From Kribbella qitaiheensis (GTDB taxonomy: Bacteria; Actinomycetota; Actinomycetes; Propionibacteriales; Kribbellaceae): DNA of 64,000 bases. Below are positions 30,367 to 48,450 of the stretch, piece after piece; the stretch's first letter is position 1; each line of letters begins with the position of its first letter. The notes below the pieces were generated by a model, which was not told the origin of the DNA, ran no database searches, and worked only from the letters and a program-made list of their open reading frames with translations. A program made the position numbers and the translations under genes. Location: contig NZ_CP043661.1 of assembly GCF_014217565.1 (NCBI RefSeq), positions 992,001 to 1,056,000 on the forward strand. The letters are read 5' to 3'.

Positions 30367-30742
30367 GTCAGCACCTCCCAATCTGCACCGGAACCCAAAC
30401 GCTATCCGCCCCGACGCGAGCCAGGCGAGCCAATTCAGATTGACCGTGATCAGCACGGATGACCGTGTGGCAGGAGGACGGTGTCGGTCGCCTGGTTGAC
30501 CAGGCCGCGCCGGTGTCTGCTGGAACAAGCCGGGGTTTGCTGGAACAAGCCGGGATTGGGATGTCTGCGGGCCGAACAGGCAGCGGCTCGCTGGCCCCGC
30601 AGTACTGGATCGGCGCGGATTTCGCGGATCGCGTGCAGGTGGTGCTGGGACAAAGCGATCGCCGTCGGGGCAGCGCGATGGCTGGTGCGGACGGGTGTCT
30701 CAGATGGCGGGCGGTGTTTGGATGGTTGCGGAGGGGTCTGCC
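30367..30742. other. Non-coding leader region with a 20-bp tandem repeat
   Basis: No convincing gene is present. TGCTGGAACAAGCCGGG occurs twice in tandem, at 30518-30534 and 30538-30554 (period 20). A plus-strand open frame of 95 codons (30459-30746) crosses the region but has no family resemblance. The stretch probably holds the promoters of the divergent glyoxalase gene and of the polycysteine leader at its right end. Confidence 0.4.
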
Positions 30743-30790
30743 ATGATCTTCCGCATGCGTATCTCGCTGTGTTGCTGTTGTTGTCGCTGA
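30743..30790 (+). CDS. Polycysteine leader peptide MIFRMRISLCCCCCR
   Basis: This 15-codon frame (or 11 codons from the inner ATG 30755) has five consecutive cysteine codons, TGT TGC TGT TGT TGT, one codon before the stop codon's preceding Arg. GGAGGGG lies 6 nt before the first ATG, so translation is well supported. Polycysteine upstream ORFs are known in actinobacteria (studied in mycobacteria) as cysteine-responsive attenuators of sulphur-related operons: ribosome stalling when cysteinyl-tRNA is scarce alters downstream RNA structure. A GC-rich hairpin starts immediately after the stop. The regulated gene would be the unknown one at 30873. Confidence 0.72.
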   Translation: MIFRMRISLCCCCCR

Positions 30791-30812
30791 CGCGCGCCGT
30801 CTGAGGCGCGCG
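30791..30812 (+). terminator. Attenuator-like hairpin directly after the polycysteine leader
   Basis: CGCGCGCC (30791-30798) and GGCGCGCG (30805-30812) form a perfect 8-bp stem with a 6-nt loop, starting on the base after the leader stop codon. A ribosome at the Cys codons would cover its base. The next ~55 nt are C-rich and G-poor, a composition suited to Rho-dependent termination. The mechanism is inferred. Confidence 0.6.
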
Positions 30813-30872
30813 AGGCCCTGCCCTTTCCCCAGGCCCGCCCGCCGACACCAGCACCCACAGGATCTCTTCTTC

Positions 30873-31274
30873 ATGAATCTCCAGGCTTTCGCTGATCTCC
30901 TCGCGTCCAACGGACTCCGCCTGCTGCCAGGCTCGGTCGCGGTACCGGTCGACGTGCTCGTGCAGTTGCCGGACGCGACGATCGTCCGCTTCGCCGCCCG
31001 CGGTACGACGCTCCGGCTGCGGCACTACGCCCCCGAGGCGCTCACCTCGGTCGTGATCGCAGCCGAGTGCGGCTGCGGTGACCATCACCCGCAGACCGGA
31101 CCCAACCGCGTCACCCTCAGCGCGTACGCCGTTCCGCTAGCCGAACGCGTCCTCGACGGCGAACTCCTCTTCGGCTGGACCCGCCACGAGGCCGGCTCCC
31201 TGCGCCTCGCCGACGCAGCCGCCCACTTCTTCACCCTCCTCCCCACCAGCCGCACTCTCGTCGGCGTCGCCTGA
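30873..31274 (+). CDS. Small protein of unknown function behind the polycysteine leader
   Basis: The 133-residue protein MNLQAFADLLASNGLRLLPG... matches no family I recognise. It contains a CGCGDHH cluster near residue 70 (the only cysteines), which could bind metal, and otherwise alternates beta-like hydrophobic segments (VVIAAECGC, VTLSAYAVPL). The start ATG has only a weak AGGA about 12 nt upstream, so expression may depend on RNA rearrangement by the leader. Downstream lies a transposase remnant, so any further genes of the operon may have been lost. Confidence 0.6.
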   Translation: MNLQAFADLLASNGLRLLPGSVAVPVDVLVQLPDATIVRFAARGTTLRLRHYAPEALTSVVIAAECGCGDHHPQTGPNRVTLSAYAVPLAERVLDGELLFGWTRHEAGSLRLADAAAHFFTLLPTSRTLVGVA

Positions 31275-31925
31275 GCAGTTCCCCGGCCGGGACGGCACGC
31301 CTGGCTCAAGCCGACAACTGTGTGTGGACCAGCGGCTTCGCCCGGCTCTCCTACGGGCAGGCCCGCGCTGCTGGATGAGCACACCGCGGTGCGCGGGGCC
31401 GGCACCGGATCGGCCTGCCTGCCTGCACGAGTAGGGGCTTGATACTGGTGGGCTGTCGTAGCCGTCCAGCTGATTCGCCGCAACAACGCCACCGGCGAGC
31501 TCGCCTACTACCGCTGCTGGTCACCGGCACCGCTGCCGCTGCGTGAACTGGTCCGCGTCGCCGGCCGCCGCTGGACGGTCGAGGAATCGTTCCAGGCGAG
31601 CAAGCCCCTCACCGGGCTCGACCAGCACCAGGTCCGCCGCTGGGACAGCTGGCACCGCTGGACCATCCTCGCGATGCTCGCCTACGCCTTCCTCACCGCG
31701 ACCGAACGAGCCGAAACCACTACACCACCAGACCTGATTGCACTGACCTGCAACGAGATCCACCGCCTGTTCAACACACTCATCGTCGAGCCGATACAAG
31801 ACCTGCGACACCGGCTGCACTGGTCGACCAGGAGACGCCGACACCAACACCGCGCCCGAACCAGCCACTACCAGCGCCGACAAGCCACCCCGACCAAAGA
31901 TCACGAACTACGGCTGCCGTACTAA
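31275..31925 (+). mobile_element. IS701/IS4-like transposase, C-terminal remnant
   Basis: From 31443 the frame reads WWAVVAVQLIRRNNATGELA, then RWTVEESFQASKPLTGLDQH and QVRRWDSWHRWTILAMLAYA: the C-terminal part of an IS701-type DDE transposase, including the conserved catalytic Glu (VEESFQ). A stop precedes it at 31440, and the segment from 31275 to there may hold a degraded upstream part in another frame. The N-terminal DDE residues are missing and no terminal inverted repeats were found, so the element is dead. Confidence 0.7.
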
Positions 31926-47628: not shown

Positions 47629-48450
47629 TCAGGAGCGACCGGTGGCGATCGGACGATCCGGGTCGGTGATCCACTCGGACCAGGACCCTACGTAGACCGG
47701 CGCCTCGATGCCGACGATCTCCAAGGCGAGTGCTTCGTGCGCAGCGGTGACGCCGGACCCGCAGTAGACGCCGACCTCACCAGAGCCGTCGACGCCGAGC
47801 TCGGCGAAGCGCTTCCGCAGGTCATCGACCGACAGGAAATGGCCGTCGCCGGCGACGTTCCCGGTGGTCGGCGCGTTCACGGCACCCGGGATGTGGCCTG
47901 CGACCTTGTCCATCGGTTCTACGTCGCCCGCGAACCGCTCCGGCGCTCTCGCGTCCAGCAATACGCCGGTCGAAGCCATGGCAGCAGCGCCTGAGGCATC
48001 GAGCATCGGTACCCGGCCGGCCGAAACGACGAACGAGCCGGCCGCATCGGCGGGCACCGTAGTACTGACCTCTCCCCCGGCTGCTTGCCACGCCGCGAAG
48101 CCGCCGTCGAGAACGCGCACGTCGCGCACCCCGAAGTACCGGAAGATCCACCACGCGCGGGCCGCGGCCATCGAGTTCGCCGCGTCGTAGACCACGACCG
48201 TCGTGTCCGGGCCGACTCCCGCACGGCGCAACGCCGCTTCGACGACGGTTGCCTCAGGCAACGGATGACGTCCGCCGTCACCAGGTGCTCCGGCCAGCTC
48301 AGCGTCGAGATCGACGAAATGCGCGCCGGGGATGTGGCCGGCGTCGTACGTGTCCCGGCCGGGTGCGCCCACCAGGTTCCAGGTGACGTCGATGACGACC
48401 TGGCGGTCGGTGGCCGAGCGCAACGACTCGGCCGTGATCAGCGGGTTCAT
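47629..48450 (-). CDS. Two-domain sulfurtransferase (rhodanese)
   Basis: The 273-residue protein has tandem rhodanese domains; the C-terminal one carries the catalytic Cys in VGVYCGSGVTAAHEAL. YDAGHIPGAHFVDLDAELAG and GHIPGAVNAPTTGN are the conserved spacer motifs. It transfers sulphur from thiosulphate or 3-mercaptopyruvate to cyanide or other thiophiles. CGSGVTA favours the 3-mercaptopyruvate type. ATG 48450 overlaps the thymidine kinase stop by 4 nt, so the two are coupled. Confidence 0.87.
   Translation of the reverse strand: MNPLITAESLRSATDRQVVIDVTWNLVGAPGRDTYDAGHIPGAHFVDLDAELAGAPGDGGRHPLPEATVVEAALRRAGVGPDTTVVVYDAANSMAAARAWWIFRYFGVRDVRVLDGGFAAWQAAGGEVSTTVPADAAGSFVVSAGRVPMLDASGAAAMASTGVLLDARAPERFAGDVEPMDKVAGHIPGAVNAPTTGNVAGDGHFLSVDDLRKRFAELGVDGSGEVGVYCGSGVTAAHEALALEIVGIEAPVYVGSWSEWITDPDRPIATGRS

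Follow-up and report, generated by a model that had tools for sequence, protein, structure and literature searches.

What is the role of a run of five cysteine codons lying directly ahead of a gene that belongs to no named family? The question is raised by the window, the 64,000-nucleotide stretch analysed here, which corresponds to positions 992001-1056000 on the single contig that makes up the 8.16 Mb Kribbella qitaiheensis genome. All features described below lie on its forward strand unless stated otherwise. The five consecutive codons TGT TGC TGT TGT TGT are present, as an initial annotation had reported, in an ORF from the ATG at 30743. This upstream ORF (uORF) had been described as ending in Cys; the Cys5 run is there, but the last residue is Arg (CGC), followed by the stop TGA at 30788-30790. 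The remaining landmarks were also found as described: a perfect 8-bp hairpin (CGCGCGCC/GGCGCGCG) begins at 30791, directly after the uORF stop, the RNA 3' of this hairpin is C-rich, and a 133-codon ORF with the motif CGCGDHH (the main gene) occupies 30873-31274. We consider it probable that this arrangement is a cysteine-responsive translational attenuator placed before a single gene. Comparison of related sequences shows three of its components to be conserved, namely the uORF, a leaderless-type promoter, and a complementarity in which the uORF and the region around the ribosome-binding site of the main gene co-evolve.

The distribution of the uORF was examined in 48 leaders, each upstream of an intact relative of the main gene. 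These relatives occur in 38 Kribbella genomes (all 37 of the genus genomes searched, plus one more), in 8 genomes of a second family of the same order (f4; 8 of 8 sampled, with 32-39% identity of the main protein), and in 2 genomes of a third (f3). Every leader contains a short Cys-rich ORF with 3-7 Cys codons, whose stop lies 58-100 nt from the main start, and this ORF persists even though the main protein drops to about 35% identity. The initial annotation had suggested asking whether homologues retain the Cys-rich uORF and the hairpin. They do: the uORF stands upstream of all 48 homologues with readable leaders, and a hairpin lies at or overlaps the uORF stop in every leader read. Its central proposal, a uORF of the mycobacterial polycysteine type controlling an unrecognised protein, is therefore supported by leaders from three families, and by the co-evolution of the complementarity to the ribosome-binding region described below.

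The encoded peptides vary in length and in nearly all residues except Cys, as examples from different leaders illustrate (MRISLCCCCCR in the window, MQMLCCCCCQCCH, MSFRVLCRCCCC, VHSRMSCCCCR and MHHLCCRCR). In some uORFs the Cys tract is broken by Arg, Ser, Gln, His or Leu, but the frame set by the conserved start still always gives Cys. Codon choice within the tract is also unusual: the TGT:TGC ratio is 176:33 in Kribbella uORFs versus 12:92 in long ORFs of the Kribbella loci. The leaders share ancestry, so that a P value on this bias would overstate their independence; the direction of the bias is clear. An excess of TGT fits pairing with ACA/ACAAC.

The position of the uORF start had to be revised. 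A 15-codon uORF with a strong Shine-Dalgarno sequence had been proposed from 30743. The ATG is indeed present there, but it sits inside a conserved hexamer (CATGAT/CATCAT) and is replaced by ATC in 5 of 37 Kribbella leaders, while the second ATG, at 30755, is retained where the first is lost. The proposed Shine-Dalgarno sequence fares no better, as any purine-rich tetramer is found at that position in only 11 of these 37 leaders. A start at 30743 with its own Shine-Dalgarno was consequently rejected, neither being conserved, and the uORF is probably an 11-codon ORF (MRISLCCCCCR plus stop, 30755-30790) of leaderless type. The hexamer itself resembles an extended -10 element (TGC-CATGAT, 30739-30747). 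It is kept in Kribbella leaders, and other hexamers of the form TG-N-CANNNT occur at equal spacing in f4, with variants TGG-CAGACT, TGG-CACAAT and TATAGT before ATG or GTG. In the window the hexamer ends 7 nt before the ATG at 30755; the spacing from -10 to start is 6-7 nt in Kribbella and f4 and 9 nt in f3. These promoter-like features suggest that translation probably starts at 30755 without a leader, as reported for mycobacterial uORFs (Shell 2015, PMC4633059).

In most leaders, the minimum free energy (MFE) fold pairs the Cys tract, in a long stem, with the nucleotides that immediately precede the main Shine-Dalgarno and often with the Shine-Dalgarno itself. The 5' arm of this stem lies within the Cys codons (UGUG, UGCUG and UGUUG; 30768-30783), and the conserved 3' arm consists of CGACACCAGC followed by CACAGGA, which holds the main Shine-Dalgarno AGGA (30843-30862). 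RNAalifold analysis of 31 Kribbella leaders returned the pairs between tract and arm in nearly all sequences. Two hairpins lie between the arms. H1 (30791-30812; 8 bp with a loop of 6) abuts the uORF stop and is conserved, with paired changes in the leaders L029 and L068; H2 (30814-30838) is C-rich, weaker, and was recovered by RNAalifold. The ribosome-binding site of the main gene had been judged poor, which does not agree with a conserved CACAGGA whose end lies, in the window, 10 nt upstream of the main start codon; it is the base-pairing of this site, not its quality, that matters. Nor is the post-stop hairpin an attenuator in the sense of an intrinsic terminator, and no terminator-like site was present in 30600-31400. 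An Rfam search of the whole window gave no match above the gathering score.

The sequences of the arms differ between families, and their complementarity is retained. In Kribbella, GCUGUUGUYG pairs with CGACACCAGC and CUGUG with CACAG; in f4, GCUGUUGUUGUCGC pairs with GCGACAACCAGC and CGUCCU with AGGACG. Compensatory differences are found between f4 species, with GACGUCCU/AGGACGUC in L072, GGCGUCCU/AGGACGCC in L076, GGGUCC/GGACCC in L071 and UUCC/GGAA in L070. A partner-swap permutation test on 13 representatives showed that native combinations of uORF and ribosome-binding site pair better than swapped ones (P=2e-5 with the last 45 nt, P=2e-4 with the Shine-Dalgarno window), and within f4 the native pairing ranked first of 120 permutations. 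This test replaced a synonymous-recoding test, which was uninformative because recoding raises GC. Thus, the predicted base-pairing between the uORF and the main ribosome-binding site is supported by both the folds and the partner-swap test. In the two f3 leaders, L132 and L133, the post-stop hairpin is CACCAGCC/GGCUGGUG, and its 5' arm repeats the motif CACCAGC of the arm opposite the Cys tract; it may compete for the tract.

On average, the Shine-Dalgarno is predicted to pair with the uORF with a probability of 0.60 in Kribbella and 0.84 in f4. When a stalled ribosome was modelled on the second Cys codon, mean Shine-Dalgarno accessibility rose both in Kribbella (0.26 to 0.43) and in f4 (0.16 to 0.27), a modest effect in a crude model, with the direction reversed in a few leaders. 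Comparison of folds with shuffled sequences gave z-scores of -5.8 (L072), -4.5 (L068), -1.15 (window) and -0.75 (L133). The fold of the window is thus weakly more stable than its shuffles, with the Shine-Dalgarno partly covered, and taken by itself the window would not have been proof of a switch; the fold of L133 contains no clear Shine-Dalgarno pairing. We count the z-score of the window, the modest modelled opening and L133 against the attenuator model, together with the sulfite reductase gene of the same genome, upstream of which a Cys-rich leader was looked for and none was seen.

Based on these features, a mechanism can be proposed in which we infer ribosome stalling, the response to cysteine and its direction, as well as the service of the protein to the cysteine or sulfur economy. 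Transcription would start at or beside the ATG at 30755, and ribosomes would initiate on the uORF without a leader. Once Cys-tRNA is plentiful, they would traverse the Cys run, terminate and leave. The freed Cys codons and their flanks could then pair with CGACACCAGC...CACAGGA, clamped by H1 and H2, and the main Shine-Dalgarno would be hidden. If Cys-tRNA is scarce, a ribosome would stall on the Cys codons and keep the 5' arm single-stranded, which would free the Shine-Dalgarno. Consequently, the 133-aa protein would be made during cysteine shortage.

The same uORF could also sense cysteine with a different output, namely Rho-dependent termination within the C-rich RNA that follows the uORF stop; with ample cysteine, the transcript past the uORF would carry no ribosomes and Rho would load, and a stalled or slow ribosome would alter this loading. 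The RNA separating the uORF stop from the gene is rich in C and poor in G in each of the three families (C 0.42-0.53, G 0.23-0.27), an intrinsic terminator is lacking, and Rho has been proposed for mycobacterial cys leaders (PMC1262725). Nevertheless, we regard this output as unlikely, since it does not predict complementarity that co-evolves with the Shine-Dalgarno, and a ribosome stalled in so short a uORF would leave the C-rich stretch uncovered.

That complementarity could, on the other hand, be the very origin of the Cys run: UGU/UGC repeats pair well with arms of the GACAACCAGC type, and the uORF might simply deliver ribosomes to the main gene, or couple its translation, with no sensing of cysteine and with the Cys codons as a by-product. 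We give this little credence, as the conserved-start frame yields Cys even in interrupted tracts, and the 58-100 nt that separate the uORF stop from the main start make a long gap for coupling. Maintenance of the Cys run at the amino-acid level would equally suit a functional Cys-rich micropeptide that binds metal or takes part in redox chemistry, rather than a cis regulator. However, the length and all non-Cys residues of the peptide vary freely, and such a function leaves both the TGT bias and the complementarity to a downstream site unexplained, which makes it very improbable. The translational attenuator is the preferred reading.

The product of the main gene offers few similarities by which its function might be recognised. 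No Pfam or NCBIfam family was assigned to the protein, and the weak matches of single members (best E 0.057; DUF6527 at E 0.15) were treated as chance, as was the best PDB sequence match (E 1.2). AlphaFold predicts a small alpha/beta fold with confidence (pLDDT 87.8), and the invariant CxC and near-invariant His of the CxC...H loop fall in the least certain internal stretch of the model. Fold searches with two AlphaFold models against the PDB, and with one against viral models, gave no match at E<=0.001. Family f2 and most of f3 yielded no relative of the protein, and a search for wider relatives in 397 genomes across the phylum returned just two marginal matches, within long ORFs. A second copy of the main gene, degenerate and frame-broken, lies about 9 kb away in one Kribbella (L067:11436-11712); it has no Cys-rich uORF. 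We tentatively suggest, as a plausible idea that falls short of a favoured one, that the protein is a cysteine-starvation factor not described before, such as a CxC...H protein that handles metal or persulfide, under its own polycysteine attenuator in part of one actinomycete order.

Cysteine-dependent attenuation by polycysteine leaderless uORFs has been shown in M. smegmatis, according to the accounts of Canestrari 2020 in PMC9031893 and PMC13236596. In its sequence features the Kribbella leader is similar, being a short leaderless-type ORF with terminal tandem Cys codons directly before the gene that it probably controls, and translational attenuation is proposed for both. In contrast to the mycobacterial uORFs, its target is an undescribed protein rather than a sulfur gene, it belongs to another genus and order, and explicit co-evolving RNA arms are seen in Kribbella and f4. 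Cys leader peptides have also been predicted in Mycobacterium, Propionibacterium acnes and Bifidobacterium (PMC1262725). These likewise are encoded by short ORFs with Cys codons in a row close to the stop, and they lack an intrinsic terminator, but they precede cys operons or cbs and have no conserved hairpins, whereas the Kribbella leaders have conserved hairpins and a stem covering the Shine-Dalgarno. With the classical trp and ilvB attenuators the locus shares alternative RNA structures and a leader peptide in which the regulating amino acid is abundant; unlike them, it has no terminator hairpin with a U-tract, and control is predicted at translation initiation. Two elements are new: the controlled gene, which belongs to an undescribed family, and the support that comparison gives to the RNA arms. 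Polycysteine attenuation would be extended beyond mycobacteria and sulfur-assimilation genes, and cysteine shortage would provide a physiological lead for an orphan protein family in which neither a domain nor a fold is recognised.

If the proposed reading is true, the protein would be the dedicated output of polycysteine sensing in these organisms, as no other leader with at least four tandem Cys codons was found in the genome of the window. This genome has about 85 sites with four tandem TGY codons, and the uORF locus is the only one found to combine a short Cys-run ORF, a leaderless-type -10 and a gene downstream. The other sites mostly appear to lie within or antisense to ordinary genes, and none has a convincing leaderless promoter before a gene. 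Of the sites with only three Cys codons, 30 loci were read. In addition, a short ORF encoding MRSSLCRPC is found at L217:386-431 (genome 5272686-5272730) and is conserved in L219; its stop abuts a CCAG...CTGG hairpin, and the downstream gene pair includes the other sulfurtransferase of the genome.

The surroundings of the locus contain further conserved features. Upstream of the -10 element there is an operator-like block (GGAC..YGTCY...GGNCGGTGTTTGG, 30689-30721), conserved in Kribbella and part of f4, with two inverted half-site pairs in relatives. It consists of GGACA..TGTCC and, about 20 bp further on, GGAC....TGTTYGG, and it occurs once in the genome at up to 3 mismatches. This block suggests that a transcription factor may also control the main gene. 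The main gene is often positioned after sepH (DUF3071). Its immediate neighbour in f4 and in one f3 genome, in tail-to-tail orientation, is a rhodanese-type sulfurtransferase gene. This conserved neighbour, whose ortholog in the window is on the reverse strand at 47635-48417, is not part of the switch; it is a hint, no more, of a link to sulfur chemistry. After the main gene, at 31445-31925, there are apparent remnants of an insertion-sequence transposase, as judged by eye from the translation.
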